Shown piece after piece: positions 1,541-57,986 of a DNA stretch of 64,000 nucleotides; the first letter of the stretch is position 1, and every line of letters starts with the position of its first letter. Source of the DNA: Desulfobotulus mexicanus (GTDB lineage: Bacteria > Desulfobacterota > Desulfobacteria > Desulfobacterales > ASO4-4); the NCBI RefSeq assembly GCF_006175995.1, contig NZ_VDMB01000003.1, positions 86,232 to 150,231 of the forward strand. Reading direction: 5' to 3'. The notes beneath the pieces were generated by a model that made no database searches, was not told where the DNA came from, and saw only the letters and a list, made by a program, of their open reading frames with translations. Made by a program: the position numbers and the translations under genes.

Positions 1541-1809
1541 AAAGCTGCTAAGGTACGCAGGCCGTTTGTGAGTGACATTGCAATCGTTTCGGATCAGAGC
1601 TTCGCCGACCTGTGCGTAAAGAATCGCCAACTGTCCGAAGTCGGCACAAAAGGCAGCGTACTGAGCTTGCTATGATAATAAAAAAGTTCATCCTGCCTTT
1701 GCCGACAAGTTTTGGCGATTCAGCACAGGTCAAGAAGCTCCCGAATAAGATTGCGTCACAAACAAATGGCCTGTGTACCTGTAAGCCTGTTTAATGATTT
1801 AACAGCTAC
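1541..1809 (+). repeat. Interspersed MITE-like hairpin element, copy 1 (divergent ends)
   Basis: First of six related intergenic copies. The core at 1565-1766 opens TTTGTGAGTGACATTGCAATC and closes with the inverted counterpart ending GCGTCACAAACAAA. Inside are long paired arms: 1621-1630 pairs with 1712-1721, 1640-1646 with 1700-1706, and GACCTGTGC with GCACAGGTC. Flanking pairing continues outward (GGTACGCAGGCC against GGCCTGTGTACC). The outer terminal repeats are degenerate: the right end is probably near 1809 (AACAGCTAC) and the left end seems lost next to the stop codon of the kinase gene. No target duplication is visible. This is the most diverged copy and gives the best covariation evidence. 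Confidence 0.8.
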
Positions 1810-11640: not shown

Positions 11641-11922
11641 GTGACTGTTCAGCTTCATTTTCCAAGTACCATAACTGCCAGACAGATGCACAGACACCCA
11701 GGCTCTTTGCCTGTGACGCAATCCGGCACTCAAGCTGAAAGGCTTAAGCCCTTTACGGGAGCAAAAGTGCTTAGGGATCTTGAGTGCCGGATTCGGGAGC
11801 TTCTTGCCCTGATCCGAAACGATTGCAATGTCACTTGCAAACAGCCATGGTACCTTGCAACAGTACGAAGCTGTTGCAATTGCAGCATTGGAATTTCAGA
11901 ATAAACTATGCTGAACGATTAC
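11641..11922 (-). repeat. MITE-like element, copy 2 (reverse orientation, main hairpin lost, nested hairpin present)
   Basis: Terminal repeats GTGACTGTTCAGC and GCTGAACGATTAC mark the ends. Read on the minus strand it aligns along its length with the copy at 51.8-52.2 kb, except that the 130-nt main hairpin is absent: GGATCAG joins directly to GGCAAGAAGC, as if deleted between two CAG triplets. The nested hairpin module at 11723-11790 (12-bp arms CCGGCACTCAAG/CTTGAGTGCCGG) sits at the same place as in that copy. It lies in the divergent space between the SDR gene and the ferredoxin gene. No convincing target duplication; both flanks are A-rich. Confidence 0.85.
11723..11790 (-). repeat. Nested hairpin module B inside element copy 2
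   Basis: 68-nt sequence with perfect 12-bp inverted arms CCGGCACTCAAG/CTTGAGTGCCGG. The same module occurs at 52021-52089 at the same internal position of another element copy and is missing from the other four copies. Confidence 0.85.
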
Positions 11923-14931: not shown

Positions 14932-15257
14932 GTAATTATTCAGCACATTTTTTTATGCAAGATTATCCATTAATTTCAAAGCACTGGTTCCAGCAAAAGA
15001 CAATCGGGCTGTTTGTGAGTGACATTGCAATCGTTTCGGATCAGAGCTTTGCAGGCCTGTGCGAAAGAAGCGGCAAACTGTCTGAGCCGCCAAAAGGCAG
15101 CGTGCTTAAGCCTGCCATGGTAATCAAAAAGCTTATCCTGCCTGTGGCGGGGAGTTTTTGCCGCTTCCGCACAGGACAAGAAGCTTCCGAATAAGATTGC
15201 GTCACGAACAAATGGTCCGCTTGTCTATGCACCTAATTAATTGTGCTGAACAGTTAC
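14932..15257 (+). repeat. MITE-like element, copy 3, with perfect 8-bp target-site duplication
   Basis: Best-defined copy (326 bp). Left end GTAATTATTCAGCACA (14932-14947) and right end TGTGCTGAACAGTTAC (15242-15257) are inverted repeats identical at 14 of 16 positions. The element is flanked by TCTAAAAC on both sides (14924-14931 and 15258-15265), an exact 8-bp duplication. The interior has the shared core (TTTGTGAGTGACATTGCAATC at about 15010 and its inverse near 15214) and the main branched hairpin. GTAA ends with 8-bp duplications are features of IS66-family insertion. No coding capacity. It separates mtaB from the TRAP transporter operon. Confidence 0.93.
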
Positions 15258-26364: not shown

Positions 26365-26716
26365 GTAATTATTCAGCACATTTCCTCCTGAAAGATTGTG
26401 CTTTAATTTCAAAACCTTGATTCCAGCGAAAAACAATCGGGCTGTTTGTGAGTGACATTGCAATCGTTTCGGATCAGAGCTTCGCAGGCATGTGCGAAAG
26501 AAGCGGCAAACTGTCTGAGCCGCCACAAAGGCAGCGTGCTTAAGCCTACCATGATAATAAAAAAGCTTATCCTGCCTGTGGCGGGGAGTTTTTGCCGCTT
26601 CCGCACAGGGCAAGAAACTCCCGAATAAGATTGCGTCACAAACAAATGGCTCGGTTGTCTATGCTCCTAATTGTAAGCTTTCGATTTATTAAAGGGAAAT
26701 TGTGTTAAATAGTTAC
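26365..26716 (+). repeat. MITE-like element, copy 4
   Basis: Left end GTAATTATTCAGCACA (26365-26380), right end TGTGTTAAATAGTTAC (26701-26716). The interior is close to copy 3, including the main hairpin at about 26485-26610. Flanking octamers (AATGCCTT and CAAAAAAG) do not match, so the target duplication has decayed or been lost. It fills nearly all of the space between the convergent FecR and tsaB genes: 6 nt and 10 nt remain on either side, so its hairpin could serve as the shared transcription terminator. Confidence 0.88.
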
Positions 26717-40858: not shown

Positions 40859-43800
40859 TCAATCCCCCTTTGTGTCCAGTCCCGGAATTTTTTTCAGGGC
40901 TGCACCGAACCTGGGATAATTGACCTTAACGCCGTCATCCAGATCAATTTTTATCTGCTGGGTTGCCAGAGGATAAAGGATGTCCCGCTCATAGGCTTCA
41001 AGCTCTGAAATCATCTTTGCTGTTTTTGCAATTTCCTTCAAAGCCTTTGTTTTTTCTGCCTGAGGGGTATCTGAACGGATACTGATGGCCTCAAGGTGTT
41101 TTTTTTGAGCATCAAGTTTGGTGCGAAACTCCCTCAGGTACTCATTCAGAACAATGCTGACCGTATCATGGCGATAGCGGTGCATGTAAATCAGGGCATT
41201 GAAGCTCCCTTTGGGGCTGGAAAAGAGCCAGTAGATGGGGCGTTTTTTGTAGCGTTTTACATGGTCGGCGTAGAAATCCCTGAGGAAGTATTTGCGGATG
41301 TCTTTACCAAGGGCCTTTTCCACAAACCTAAGGTTTTCTTCGTAGTGTTCTTCCCCAAAGGCCACCTGTATAAATTTTTTAAATCTGTCCACAATATCAT
41401 CGGTAAACCAGTTTCCGTCCAGCATGGGAATAACATTGTCGTCATCGGCCGGGAAAGAAGGCTGAACCACGAATGAACACAAATCAACACCAATATTCTT
41501 TTTATCTTTTCCTTCGTGTTCATTTGTGTCTATTTGTGGTTCCTGTAGTTTTCTGTAGTAATCCTCGATGGTCTCGCCCTGATTGGCCAGAATCAGCCCC
41601 GGTTTTTCAAGGGCATAGCGACCGAACATGCAGCCGACGGCATAGGAAATCAGCTCTTTCATGGTGTCGGCAAGGAGTTGCTTTTCCAGCTCATGGTCAA
41701 TGGGAAAATCTTTTTTAACCACAGAATACACAGAACACACGGAAGGAAAATCTTTGTTCTGTTCTTTTTCTGTGTGTTCAGTGTTTTCCGTGGTTTGTTT
41801 TCTGTTGTAACGGTAGTAGGGGTTGCAGGTCAGGGTGATTTCATTGAGCGGCACCTCGGGTGTCAGCTCATCCTGAAGACCGTAGGCTTCTATGAAGATG
41901 CGGTTGTTCTCTTCCTCCAGCCGCTGCATTTCAAGGGTCATTTCTTTCCAGTGGGAGCGGAGCTTCTGGTAGCTGGCCTTGATGGTTGACTGGCGGTAGT
42001 CGGGGTGGAAAAGGGGGAGGATGGTGAAGTCCCAGGAGGTTTCGTAAGAGTTCCAGTCGGCTTTTGAAACAGTAACACAATGTCTTACAGTTCTATTAAT
42101 CTCACCTTTTCTACTATTTATGTCATATAATAAAGGTAAACACCGTACTTCTCCAACATTCATATTAAGAGTTGGATTAATGACCTTTAATAACTTTGTC
42201 ACATATTTGGTATTTAAAAAGCCAAGGCATTTTTCAATATTCTTTTCATCATGAAAAAATAGAGAAGGAGCAGCGAGGTTAAAAATTTGATTAGCTTCTA
42301 AAGTCCTAAAAGATGATTCATTACTTGTAATAAGAGTCCACGATATCCCTCTTTTTCCCCACAAATATTCAGGTAATATCCGCGCAACATGATCTTTTTG
42401 ATAGTGTTTTCTGGCAGTCTCTGACCAATCAATTACCCAATCAACATTTCCAAACCATTTCCTGTAAGGACCTCCTTTAGGATGTTGCCACCACTTAGCG
42501 TTTGGCCCAACTGTCGATGATGCAACCTCCCAACTTTGACGAAGATATTTATCATTATCTCCAGTTTTTGTCTGACCATCTGAAATTGTCAAATCGTGAA
42601 TAGTTTCTGAAGCTACTTTAAATGGATTAACAAAAATTTCACTTACCCAATAAGCAATAGGACTGCTTGGTATTACCTTGAATTTTTCAGCAGAAGCACG
42701 GAAAAACCAGCCGCATTCCGGGTTTTGAATTGCCTCCATAGTTTTAGGCCCCTGATTTTCTGAGCCTCTAAAATCCGATAGACGCACATAGCCGCCCTTG
42801 AAATCAGGTTGATGTTCATTTTCTATGGTAAAGGTACAAATCGGCACAGTAGCACCATCAAAACCTGAATACTCAAGCTGCACCAGTGATGTAATGGTTT
42901 TTTGGCTAATCAGAAAATTGCGGAGTTTTTCATAGGATGAAATAAACATCCACACAAAGGGGGTCATAAATCCAAGCTGCCCTTTAGGGAGAGCCAGTTC
43001 TGTATTTCGTACCATGAAAGCAGAAAACAAATCTGATTTTACATCTCCATAATTATCCTTCAGCCATGCACCCAGCCTGCCATTCATCCCCTTGCCCCCC
43101 ATATAGGGCGGGTTGGCAATGACAACATGATATTTCTGGCTGAGATAGTCGGCCTGATTCAGGGCTTTTTTGCATTGATGCACCAGTTCACGGAAGCCGA
43201 AGCCGGGTGCTCTGACCGACTCATTGTAGGCCATCAAGGCATCCACAGCTTTTTGTATCTGGTCCGGGGGAAGCTGAGTCCGCAGCAGGGAACCAAAATT
43301 GTCTGCCTCGGAAAACAGGGTCAGATCGTGGGTCAAGGCTTCCTGATCCACGCCTGCACTGCACATGGCATTTAATATTTGTGTCCATTCGTGTTCATTC
43401 GTGGTTCTTTTTTCCAGAGATAAATCAACATTCTCCAGCACACAGATATTGGGAGAAACGATATTCTTAAAAAAACGGCGGTAATGGCTTCTGGCCTTCA
43501 TGGTCAGTGCAAAGGAGGCAAGGTTTCCTGCCCTCTCGTCTATTTCAATGCCATAAAGGTTATTGCTGAGGATAAGACCCGGTATTCTGGAGGGTTCATA
43601 GCCTTCTTCTTCATAAATGGCGTAAAGAAGATCAAAGGCATAGGTGAGCATATGGCCTGAGCCACAAGCAGGATCACAGATTTTGATTTCCTCTGGTGAT
43701 GAAATTTTTAAAAATGTCCGGGAAGAGCTGTTTTCACTTTCCACTTCCCACTCTCCACTTCCAACTGTTTCTTTTATGTAGTACGCCATCTTCTCAACCA

Positions 43801-44581
43801 GCCTGGAATCCGGCCTGTTCAGCATCCAGAGTCTGCCCAGAGAATTTTCCACCAGATATTTTACAATCCAGTGGGGCGTAAAAAGCTGGGTGGCGGCGGG
43901 GATATTTTCCGGAGTAATTTTTTTATTTTTTTTCAGACCCTCAAAGACCTGATCTTTTTTTTCAGAAATATAAAACTGGTAAAGCCAGCCGATGACTTCC
44001 ACATCCTCACAGATTTCCGGTGTCAGGGCCTCCCGTGTTTGGTGGAGAATGGAATTTTCTGCAAGAAGGGCATCTGGCATGAGAAGTTCGGTATAATCAT
44101 TGATGCGCTGGAACATGAAGGGCATGGATGCGTTCCAGTAGTTACAGACTGCAACCACCATCATGCGGTAGGCTTCGCCCTGGGGGTCAGGGCTGACGGC
44201 TCTGCCATTGAGAAGGTCTGAAATCTGCACTCTGATTTTTTCAGGAATCAGATCTTCATCCATGTGGCCCATCTTGGCTTCAGCGAGAATTTCGGGCTGG
44301 TGCTGTCCGTCTGCGGGAGACACAATGCGGATATGGCTGTAGTGGTTAACATCCATGAAACGCAGGGCGCAGAATCGGTTGAACCAGGTGTAGGCTACCC
44401 GTTCTTCCACCTGTTCCCTGCCCTGCTCTTTGATGGCTTCCTGCAATGTTCTTACGGCTTCGGGGTTTTCCCTTCGGGCGGCACTGCCTTCTGCCAGAAC
44501 CTGATTTATTTTGGATGCAACCTCTCCCATCAGGGTACGCCGGGCAGACTGGGCAAATTTTTTAAGCTTTGAGGTATCCAT
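40859..44581 (-). CDS. pglX: BREX-1 adenine-specific DNA methyltransferase PglX
   Basis: N6-adenine methyltransferase (1240 residues) that marks host DNA for BREX self-recognition. SAM motif I is ICDPACGSGHMLTYAFDLLY and the catalytic motif IV is VIANPPYMGGKG; target recognition lies in about residues 580-830 (AT-rich DNA, see findings). Four stretches are encoded by dispersed repeat DNA kept in frame: GSGEWEVESEN, TTNEHEWTQI, TTENTEHTEKEQNKD with its inverse SVCSVYSVV, and DTNEHEGKDKKNIG with DLCSFVVQ. The ATG overlaps the brxC stop (TAATG). The frame is intact despite the insertions, so the protein is probably functional. Confidence 0.95.
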   Translation of the reverse strand: MDTSKLKKFAQSARRTLMGEVASKINQVLAEGSAARRENPEAVRTLQEAIKEQGREQVEERVAYTWFNRFCALRFMDVNHYSHIRIVSPADGQHQPEILAEAKMGHMDEDLIPEKIRVQISDLLNGRAVSPDPQGEAYRMMVVAVCNYWNASMPFMFQRINDYTELLMPDALLAENSILHQTREALTPEICEDVEVIGWLYQFYISEKKDQVFEGLKKNKKITPENIPAATQLFTPHWIVKYLVENSLGRLWMLNRPDSRLVEKMAYYIKETVGSGEWEVESENSSSRTFLKISSPEEIKICDPACGSGHMLTYAFDLLYAIYEEEGYEPSRIPGLILSNNLYGIEIDERAGNLASFALTMKARSHYRRFFKNIVSPNICVLENVDLSLEKRTTNEHEWTQILNAMCSAGVDQEALTHDLTLFSEADNFGSLLRTQLPPDQIQKAVDALMAYNESVRAPGFGFRELVHQCKKALNQADYLSQKYHVVIANPPYMGGKGMNGRLGAWLKDNYGDVKSDLFSAFMVRNTELALPKGQLGFMTPFVWMFISSYEKLRNFLISQKTITSLVQLEYSGFDGATVPICTFTIENEHQPDFKGGYVRLSDFRGSENQGPKTMEAIQNPECGWFFRASAEKFKVIPSSPIAYWVSEIFVNPFKVASETIHDLTISDGQTKTGDNDKYLRQSWEVASSTVGPNAKWWQHPKGGPYRKWFGNVDWVIDWSETARKHYQKDHVARILPEYLWGKRGISWTLITSNESSFRTLEANQIFNLAAPSLFFHDEKNIEKCLGFLNTKYVTKLLKVINPTLNMNVGEVRCLPLLYDINSRKGEINRTVRHCVTVSKADWNSYETSWDFTILPLFHPDYRQSTIKASYQKLRSHWKEMTLEMQRLEEENNRIFIEAYGLQDELTPEVPLNEITLTCNPYYRYNRKQTTENTEHTEKEQNKDFPSVCSVYSVVKKDFPIDHELEKQLLADTMKELISYAVGCMFGRYALEKPGLILANQGETIEDYYRKLQEPQIDTNEHEGKDKKNIGVDLCSFVVQPSFPADDDNVIPMLDGNWFTDDIVDRFKKFIQVAFGEEHYEENLRFVEKALGKDIRKYFLRDFYADHVKRYKKRPIYWLFSSPKGSFNALIYMHRYRHDTVSIVLNEYLREFRTKLDAQKKHLEAISIRSDTPQAEKTKALKEIAKTAKMISELEAYERDILYPLATQQIKIDLDDGVKVNYPRFGAALKKIPGLDTKGD
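41465..41541. repeat. Dispersed inverted-repeat unit inside pglX (AACCACGAATGAACAC type)
   Basis: AACCACGAATGAACACAAAT at the left and its inverse ending ATTTGTGGTT at the right form an imperfect palindrome of 77 nt. The motif family (ACCACGAATGAACACGAATG) is dispersed in many bacterial genomes. It is read through in frame by pglX. Confidence 0.8.
41717..41795. repeat. Dispersed inverted-repeat unit inside pglX (AACCACAGAATACACAGA type)
   Basis: Left arm AACCACAGAATACACAGAAC, right arm ending TTTTCCGTGGTT; a 79-nt palindrome encoding the peptides NTEHTEKEQ and VCSVYSVV. Same style of dispersed repeat as the unit at 41465. Confidence 0.8.
43377..43406. repeat. Dispersed single-arm repeat inside pglX
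   Basis: ATTTGTGTCCATTCGTGTTC followed by ATTCGTGGTT: one arm of the same repeat class, encoding TTNEHEWTQI in pglX. No inverted partner nearby. Confidence 0.75.
43735..43765. repeat. Short near-tandem repeat inside pglX
   Basis: CACTTTCCACTTCCCACTCT followed by CCACTTCCAAC, a run of about 7-nt units of the GGAAGTGGGAAGT kind, encoding the acidic peptide GSGEWEVESEN in pglX. A different dispersed family from the other three. Confidence 0.7.
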
Positions 44582-51758: not shown

Positions 51759-52170
51759 GTAATTATTCAGCACAGTTTATTCTGAACGGCACATACTGTA
51801 ATTGCAGCAGCTTTGTACTATTGCAAGGCTCCGTGGCTATTTGCAAGTGACATTGCAATCGTTTCGGATCAGAGCTTTACAGGCCTGTGCGAAAGAAGCG
51901 GCAACTGTCTGACCCGCCACAAAGGCAGCGTACCAAGGCCTGCCATGGTAATCAAAAAGCTTATCCTGCCTGTGGCGGGGAGTTTTTGCCGCTTCCGCAC
52001 AGGGCAAGAAGCTCCCGAATCCGGCACTCAAGATCCATAGGCACTTTTTGCTCCCGTAAAGGGCTTGAGCTTTTCAGCTTGAGTGCCGGATTGCGTCACG
52101 GGCAAATAGCCTGGGGCCTGTGCATCTGTCTTGCAGGTATGGTACTTGGAAAATGGTGCTGAACAGTTAC
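51759..52170 (+). repeat. MITE-like element, copy 5 (both hairpin modules), with near-perfect target duplication
   Basis: The longest copy (412 bp). Left end GTAATTATTCAGCACA (51759-51774), right end GGTGCTGAACAGTTAC (52155-52170). Flanking octamers ATTACGAG (51751-51758) and GTTACGAG (52171-52178) match at 7 of 8, an independent sign of target duplication. The main hairpin module A is about 51873-52002. The nested module B at 52021-52089 has arms CCGGCACTCAAG/CTTGAGTGCCGG. The left third matches copy 2 rather than copies 3 and 4. It separates the convergent purA and ligA genes. Confidence 0.93.
52021..52089 (+). repeat. Nested hairpin module B inside element copy 5
   Basis: 69-nt hairpin with 12-bp perfect arms, about 85% or more identical by eye to the module in copy 2. 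In copies without it the sequence reads CCCGAATAAGATTGCG; here CCCGAAT joins the module, which joins ATTGCG. Confidence 0.85.
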
Positions 52171-57669: not shown

Positions 57670-57986
57670 TTTATAATTACAACAGCCGGATTCCTATACA
57701 AGGCACCATGGCTGTTTGTGAGTGACATTGCAATCGTTTCGGATCAGAGCTTTGAAGGCCTGTGCGAAAGAAGCGGCAAACTGTCTGAGCCGCCACAAAG
57801 GCAGCGTACTTTAGTCTGCTATGGCAATCAAAAAGCTCATCCTGCCTGTGGCGGCGAGTTTTTGCCGCTTCCGCACAGGGCAAGAAGCTCTAAGAATAAG
57901 ATTGCGTCACGAACAAATGGCCTGGGTGCCTGTGCAACTGCCTGACAGATATGAGCATTAGCGAACGATAATAGTACTGAACCTAC
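57670..57986 (+). repeat. MITE-like element, copy 6 (degenerate left end)
   Basis: Core at about 57714-57922 with the main hairpin well preserved: GAAGCGGCAAA pairs with TTTGCCGCTTC and GCCGCCAC with GTGGCGGC. Left flank (TAATTACAACAGC) resembles copy 5 from inside its left end; the true left terminus is not clear. The right end is near 57986 (GTACTGAACCTAC in place of GTGCTGAACAGTTAC). No nested module and no target duplication. It lies between the start of glyQ and the end of the GHMP kinase gene. Confidence 0.85.

Follow-up and report, generated by a model that had tools for sequence, protein, structure and literature searches.

A hairpin-bearing repeat found six times in a 64-kb window of a Desulfobotulus genome is a MITE, as seen in its terminal inverted repeats, its 8-bp target duplication and its high intergenic copy number. 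It is likely that this element is non-autonomous, depends for its movement on an IS66-type transposase acting in trans, and contains as its core a folded strand under selection, probably RNA, with a putative protein-binding loop. The earlier note on this DNA concerned compensated base changes between two copies of the hairpin; it did not extend to the transposable element around the hairpin or to the hairpin's occurrence well outside a single genome.

Copies of the repeat in the window

The window, which is the whole 64-kb stretch analysed (G000:C3:86232-150231), belongs to a 3.83-Mb draft genome, called the home genome (G000) below. The genus is placed in the Desulfobacterales, phylum Thermodesulfobacteriota (NCBI taxonomy). 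The six copies and their parts are as follows.

1556-1789, + strand: copy 1, an old copy with a subfamily-B hairpin core; model R2 match at 1581-1754; left end not found, right end a remnant only, judged by eye
1621-1721, + strand: stem S1 of copy 1, GAATCGCC (1621-1628) with GGCGATTC (1714-1721)
1631-1711, + strand: internal loop and apical arm of copy 1, CTGTCCGAA (1631-1639) opposite AAGTT (1707-1711)
1640-1646 with 1700-1706, + strand: apical-arm stem of copy 1, GTCGGCA with TGCCGAC
11641-11922, - strand: copy 2, same family, hairpin core deleted, ends degenerate
14932-15257, + strand: copy 3 (L011), complete, 326 bp; ends GTAATTATTCAGCACA / GTAACTGTTCAGCACA (reverse complement); flanked on each side by the same 8 bp, TCTAAAAC, as an exact target duplication
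26365-26716, + strand: copy 4 (L012), 352 bp, both ends present; no duplication left (1/8)
51759-52170, + strand: copy 5 (L013), 412 bp, lengthened by insertion of a further hairpin (about 65 bp) into the right arm; target duplication 7/8, ATTACGAG / GTTACGAG
57710-57939, + strand: copy 6, subfamily-A hairpin core, ends degenerate
57770-57871, + strand: stem S1 of copy 6, GAAGCGGC (57770-57777) with GCCGCTTC (57864-57871)
57781-57789: loop inside S1 of copy 6, CTGTCTGAG, opposite GAGTT
57789-57795 with 57849-57855: second stem of copy 6, GCCGCCA with TGGCGGC

Copy 1 begins 15 bases past the end of an ORF at 65-1540 (FGGY-kinase-like by eye), and its left end is missing as though removed by deletion (1540-1556). 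The extra hairpin of about 65 bp (CCGGCACTCAAG ... CTTGAGTGCCGG) is common to the right arms of copies 2 and 5, and copy 2 has retained it with its main hairpin gone; the elements look modular in build.

Ends, target duplications and copy number

The unit around the hairpin is longer than the hairpin itself, and both of its ends read GTAAYTRTTCAGCACA inward. Allowing up to two mismatches, the end GTAAYTATTCAGCACA gave 82 + 82 matches in the home genome, against 1 + 0 for the reversed control, and 185 + 189 and 14 + 13 matches in the other two Desulfobotulus genomes searched. The family was thus present in all three, with more than 100 candidates per genome in two of them, and annotators now have a model for such repeats. 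The home genome held 144 candidates, of which the 40 scored yielded 41 matches, and a 21-base core was found in at least 120 stretches of Desulfobotulus alkaliphilus ASO4-4.

Elements bounded by terminal inverted repeats numbered 111 and measured 107-479 bp, which is too small for a transposase gene. Outside the ends of the 110 with both flanks, an 8-bp direct repeat was exact in 35 and agreed at 7/8 positions in 29 more; exact duplications of 3-7 and 9 bp occurred in two to three elements each, with two apiece at 6, 7 and 9 bp, and those of 2 bp in 16. With more loci, the set grew to 216 elements, one of them in the 540-559 bin. The hairpin was present in 166 of the 214 with both flanks (64 with an exact 8-bp duplication, 101 with at least 7/8) and absent from 48 (12 exact, 20 with at least 7/8). 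Because derivatives lacking the hairpin exist, and some of these keep an exact duplication, the core may be dispensable for movement. The main size class was 326-356 bp; longer elements contain an extra hairpin or other inserts, and shorter ones look like internal deletions. At L096 and L109 in the home genome, neighbouring end repeats adjoin or run into each other, as TTCTGAATAATTACTTATTCAG does in L096, which suggests that elements have inserted within or beside one another.

A probable partner: an IS66-type transposase

IS66 elements typically have GTAA-type ends and duplicate 8 bp of their target. The exact end pattern GTAAYTRTTCAGCAC was found in 15 of 291 genomes of the order, three of which were Desulfobotulus. 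Several ends each occurred in five genomes of other genera (G096, G191, G079, G119 and G168); the single end in each of the remaining seven may be due to chance. The transposase domain PF03050 was sought in six end-bearing genomes and matched in four. At L323, in G191 of the same order, a complete IS66 element of 1759 bp has the ends GTAATTATTCAGCAA / GTAACTATTCAGCCA (1 + 2 mismatches), an exact 8-bp duplication, TATAATTT, and a transposase that matched PF03050 with an E-value of 9e-47. At L327 in the same genome, an IS66 transposase gene is followed by an exact right end, GTAATTATTCAGCAC, the left side being cut by the end of the contig; at the other IS66 loci of G191 both family ends were not found together.

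Neither the home genome nor G002, both drafts, gave a PF03050 match, and the L323 protein used as a query against the home genome found only a 65-codon relic with a stop. So the family ends are IS66-type, and the home genome has either lost the partner or has it in a part that the draft does not cover. The Desulfobotulus element resembles IS66 in its ends and duplications, those of the complete G191 element being near-identical at the ends, and differs from it in having no internal transposase.

The relic (L333, G000:C2:120719-120913) is what remains of an IS66 transposase gene, with 45% identity across about 65 codons, and lies between two apparently broken genes; no ends were seen beside it by eye. 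The IS66 transposase of G001 was rejected as a partner: its only GTAA-like end, upstream and found by eye (GTAACTTCTCAATAAG), differs from that of the family, and no family end flanks the gene even with up to three mismatches. In both G096 and G191, several contigs stop about 67-130 bases from an IS66-type end, as is characteristic of assemblies broken by a longer insertion sequence present in many copies.

Compensated changes in the stems

Between copies 1 and 6, the earlier note had reported two stems with four double changes that keep pairing. Read directly, S1 is GAATCGCC/GGCGATTC in copy 1 and GAAGCGGC/GCCGCTTC in copy 6, the second stem is GTCGGCA/TGCCGAC and GCCGCCA/TGGCGGC respectively, all exactly at the positions given in the list above, and the four compensated double changes are real. 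Predicted folds of both copies were far more stable than those of their shuffles, at -115.7 kcal/mol (z -12.3) for copy 1 and -111.2 kcal/mol (z -8.3) for copy 6, and in each case 0/200 shuffles were as good.

The two versions of the stems are not private to these two copies and define subfamilies A (copy 6) and B (copy 1). Version B is also present in L077 of the home genome and L160 of G002, and L155, also of G002, is intermediate between the two (GAATCGGC/GCCGATTC). Pair 4 of S1 occurs in three states, G-C in A, T-A in B and A-T in L154. When the consensus sequences of A and B were compared over 75 pairs, 59 were the same, seven were doubly changed and still paired, four were singly changed and paired, three were broken and two were gapped.

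The further claim of the note, that these changes imply selection on folding, holds up. A covariance model and a test of covariation against phylogenetic expectation, both of which it had proposed, have been run, and covariation exceeded the tree-based nulls, strongly so once divergent copies were included. Within the genus, 158 distinct cores from three Desulfobotulus genomes were aligned, with four subfamily-B rows brought into register by hand, and the 75 pairs were compared with a null in which the inferred substitutions of each column were redistributed over the tree. Compensated double changes were found in 17 of the 75 pairs, against 8.4 +/- 2.3 in the null, and 96.2% of cells were paired, against 88.7 +/- 2.0 (0/200 for both); doubly changed cells numbered 90, which is below the highest null value of 113. 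The signal also appeared in a subset of G002 plus subfamily B (12 pairs, null 6.0, 1/300) and in the 59 rows of the home genome alone, analysed without the D. alkaliphilus loci L253-L292 (11 pairs, null 5.25, 1/300).

Among the young A copies alone, the compensation signal was weak, with nine pairs against 5.5 +/- 1.75 (14/300 nulls as high) and a percentage of paired cells that was not unusual (35/300). Changes per column counted on the tree were fewer in paired than in unpaired columns, on both terminal (1.92 vs 2.79) and internal branches (0.67 vs 1.22). Rare variants in young copies were G.U-rich by 37 to 18 (p 0.014), or 79 to 33 at a looser cut; a strand bias in young copies was not significant when tree-counted events were judged against the unpaired-column control (p 0.12 terminal, 1.0 internal).

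The fold beyond the genus

In 37 genomes from other genera, a plain DNA search gave no match. With a covariance model built on the genus cores (R1), G079, from another family, gave 17 matches (best E 5.9e-17) and G094 gave one (best E 3.6e-5); the remaining 91 genomes from outside Desulfobotulus gave none. G079 contains ten elements of 234-238 bp bounded by the family ends, with an exact 8-bp duplication in six, 7/8 in one, none in two and one running off the contig; a hairpin-less element of 124 bp there also has an exact 8-bp duplication. The hairpin stems of G079 are rewritten in both arms: CCTGTGC/GCACAGG of Desulfobotulus becomes TTTTTGC/GCAAAAA, and, in most copies, GAAGCGGCAA/TTGCCGCTTC becomes GAACTGGCAA/TTGCCAGTTC (148 of 177 rows were readable in this comparison).

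When three genera were aligned with plain MAFFT (A2), with no fitting to the fold, 18 of 43 pairs had double changes, against 3-7 in slid controls and 9.0 +/- 1.6 in shuffled ones (0/500 as high). The subfamily-B rows were one base out of register in S1 and were left so, which works against the claim. In this alignment 90.3% of cells pair, against 36-50% when slid, a percentage that is favoured because folding these very sequences supplied the structure.

Among 389 genomes of the order, 90 contained matches to a model of Desulfobotulus, G079 and G094 (R2); they represent 41 of 150 genera, Desulfobotulus included. Model R3 found matches in 44 of 395 genomes sampled from the phylum, in 31 of 246 genera. 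Outside the order, five genomes (G414, G593, G571, G690 and G542) reached E < 1e-10 with R3, and many other matches lay at just 1e-4 to 1e-9; the E-values of the models are rough. Matches per genome are lower bounds, because only the best 7-40 candidates per genome were scored.

When 49 phylum matches were aligned by fitting to the model (A7), 88.6% of cells paired, against 31-50% when slid, and 524 cells were doubly changed, against 149.6 +/- 10.2 when shuffled and 71-120 when slid. The signal is carried by these cells and percentages; the count of pairs with double changes, 36/36 against 22-28 slid and 30.6 +/- 1.7 shuffled, is uninformative, and the pair counts of A5-A7 lean toward the fold because these alignments were made to models. 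Stem S1 (helix 4 of A7) was paired in 98.3% of cells, and all ten of its pairs had changed on both sides. Against a tree-based null, 48 matches (the 49 of A7 minus one reverse match) had 514 doubly changed paired cells where 73 +/- 12 were expected, 36 pairs where 26.1 +/- 2.4 were expected and 88.4% of cells paired where 53% were expected (0/300 in each case). On the branches of this tree, 180 double changes from the paired state kept pairing and 22 broke it; among single changes, 67 kept it and 72 broke it. Since related hairpins keep the fold and the loop with most paired letters changed, the fold itself seems to matter.

Locus L158 was included in A1 and omitted from A2-A7, and L035, L357 and L344 were omitted from A4. 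Reverse matches of L353 and L373 each entered one count and were dropped from the later loop and tree analyses.

The near-invariant internal loop

S1 is separated from a short apical stem by an asymmetric internal loop, which reads UGUUUGAG on its 5' strand and GAGUU on its 3' strand. Among the phylum matches, every column of the loop was at least 80% identical, against 50-90% for the ten 5'-side columns of S1. The A copies of Desulfobotulus have CTGTCTGAG / GAGTT, and the apical stem there is a longer arm. The loop was found at the match in all 28 newly fetched phylum loci (one per genome, a part of the 44 genomes), a presence that is partly selected because the models also score the loop; a regular expression for the loop, with 2 + 1 mismatches allowed, was found in 467 of 4982 random 180-base windows. 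Next to the apical stem, both strands of the loop have a GA, and the two could form putative tandem G.A pairs.

On the strand as drawn, G.U wobbles outnumber A.C mismatches by 59 cells to 21, or by 21 to 15 of 36 pairs, in cells that are not independent, and the drawn strand is therefore favoured, as RNA or as DNA. Tree-counted events within the genus gave no significant wobble asymmetry.

Two kinds of carrier for one core

In other genomes of the order, the core often lies in a different element of about 190 bp with the ends GATGnnYTCGTAAAAAGTC (GATG..TCGTAAAAAG). Among 33 such copies with both flanks, 19 had an exact 6-bp duplication, two an exact 7-bp one, one an exact 5-bp one and 11 none; 26 further motif matches had no recognisable GATG-type ends. 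The 6-bp duplications (L369-L413) usually begin with A and end with T. GTAAC-type ends with 8-bp duplications, as in Desulfobotulus and G079, accompanied 3 of 59 motif matches there, against 1/230 in the control. With the same core between different ends and duplications of different lengths, two kinds of mobile element thus carry one core, a situation that may have arisen through swapped ends or through capture of the core.

It may be proposed, tentatively, that a mobile non-coding RNA or folded DNA strand with a near-invariant putative protein-binding loop exists through much of the phylum and has been taken up by transposable elements of at least two unrelated kinds, aiding their spread or persistence whichever transposase moves them.

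Genomic context and possible roles of the fold

The hairpin is most likely a folded-strand module with a putative protein-binding loop, with RNA ranked before single-stranded DNA. Inside the cell, one strand of the core would fold; this strand would most likely be RNA or, failing that, DNA left single-stranded during replication. The asymmetric loop beside the short apical stem would then be the binding site for a protein of the host or the element, and the stems would serve only to hold it in place, so that their letters could turn over freely in compensated pairs. As differing ends share the core, the benefit would probably lie in spread or tolerance in hosts and not in the chemistry of one transposase.

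A transposon-borne palindrome might also change in this way with its folding unselected, if the element were a passive MITE with a long imperfect palindrome in which template switching or arm-to-arm correction produced the paired changes. Palindromes are prone to such correction, single copies such as L017 contain a paired transversion (GC to UA), and the weak signal among young copies agrees with it. Correction should, however, also erase mismatches, and the asymmetric loop persists in distant relatives whose arms have been rewritten. For the same reason, neither gene conversion between arms nor inversion, which the earlier note had offered as grounds for rejecting selection on folding, fits the data, because an asymmetric unpaired loop would not be expected to survive the rewriting of the arms. 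The excess of pair-keeping over pair-breaking double changes on the tree, set beside the near-even split of single changes, likewise stands against passive correction, which we consider improbable; ordinary decay of a palindrome is rejected on the tree-based nulls and the conserved loop. Folding as single-stranded DNA has rather more in its favour, if still less than an even chance by some distance: a hairpin on the lagging strand could be recognised by a transposition or recombination protein, as happens with attC sites or IS200/IS605 ends. The carriers are mobile, the combination of variable arms and fixed unpaired bases is reminiscent of attC hairpins, and there is no orientation bias towards genes; the exact 8-bp and 6-bp duplications and the terminal inverted repeats, however, point to double-strand movement of the DDE type.

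A hairpin useful to the host as cis-acting RNA, for example as a terminator or a protector of mRNA ends, would be kept wherever it landed. Gene context from a simple ORF caller agrees with this in part, as 147 of the 155 elements placed lay between called genes (the other eight inside one), at median distances to their neighbours of 32-50 bases for tandem or convergent genes and 90-132 for divergent ones, and MITE transcripts are described as forming stable stem-loops in a 2024 review (PMC10969869). It is opposed by the absence of any excess between convergent genes (25/147, against 134/641 background junctions), by the orientation of the hairpin relative to tandem neighbours (46 same, 49 opposite), which shows no preference and therefore does not support a role within the mRNA of the neighbours, and by the gathering of pair-breaking changes after insertion, single breaks making up 119 of 247 column changes from the paired state on terminal branches. 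Such a cis-acting role is thus unlikely, though slightly less so than passive correction; the folded-strand module, as RNA acting through its loop, is preferred to both. Gene context gave no pattern beyond intergenic placement, and promoter-like sites near copy 6 numbered one, with 0.8 expected.

Relation to known elements

MITEs are usually seen as passive scraps that need their ends alone. Here, the interior of a MITE is a strongly covarying fold, common to elements that differ in ends and duplication lengths, with a loop kept in many genera of an environmentally central host group. The reading of the loop as a binding site makes a testable prediction, namely that some molecule binds it, and could uncover a stage at which DNA transposons act through RNA or folded DNA, or else a host function that transposons disseminate.

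Like the REP elements associated with RAYT, the Desulfobotulus repeats are many intergenic imperfect hairpins with conserved unpaired bases. REPs are not known to have terminal inverted repeats or target duplications, whereas the Desulfobotulus element has both. Integron attC sites are similar in that the arms are free to vary, the unpaired bases are fixed and one strand matters; unlike them, the Desulfobotulus element moves with target duplications. The closest likeness in form is given by Chunjie of Geobacter uraniireducens and QMITE1/2 of Coxiella, which, as described in part of the review, share its size, end repeats and target duplications, and also its intergenic placement, many truncated copies and stem-loop (PMC10969869). 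For these elements, the same part of the text describes no covariation, no loop shared across genera and no core shared across end types, and a word search of the review gave no occurrence of IS66 or 'compensatory' (PMC10969869).

Rfam 15 at the gathering threshold found two tRNAs only in the window and nothing at the hairpin. A relaxed Rfam search of 5 + 14 loci gave 3 + 4 matches, all below the gathering score, those on the hairpin itself being to mir-4679 (E 3 and 3.8), and a known RNA was rejected. Carriage by phages or plasmids was rejected on narrow queries: viral_contigs contained no exact match of the 21-base core or the loop pattern, and blastn of one relative against plasmids and of copy 6 against phages gave no match. 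The literature search, in which subscription papers were thinly covered so that absence is weak evidence, returned nothing that deals with these repeats, with Desulfobotulus MITEs or with MITEs that show covariation. Elsewhere in the window, 34-bp inverted repeats, 88% complementary, occur at 41464-41497 and 43374-43407, within a long ORF at 40859-44581.
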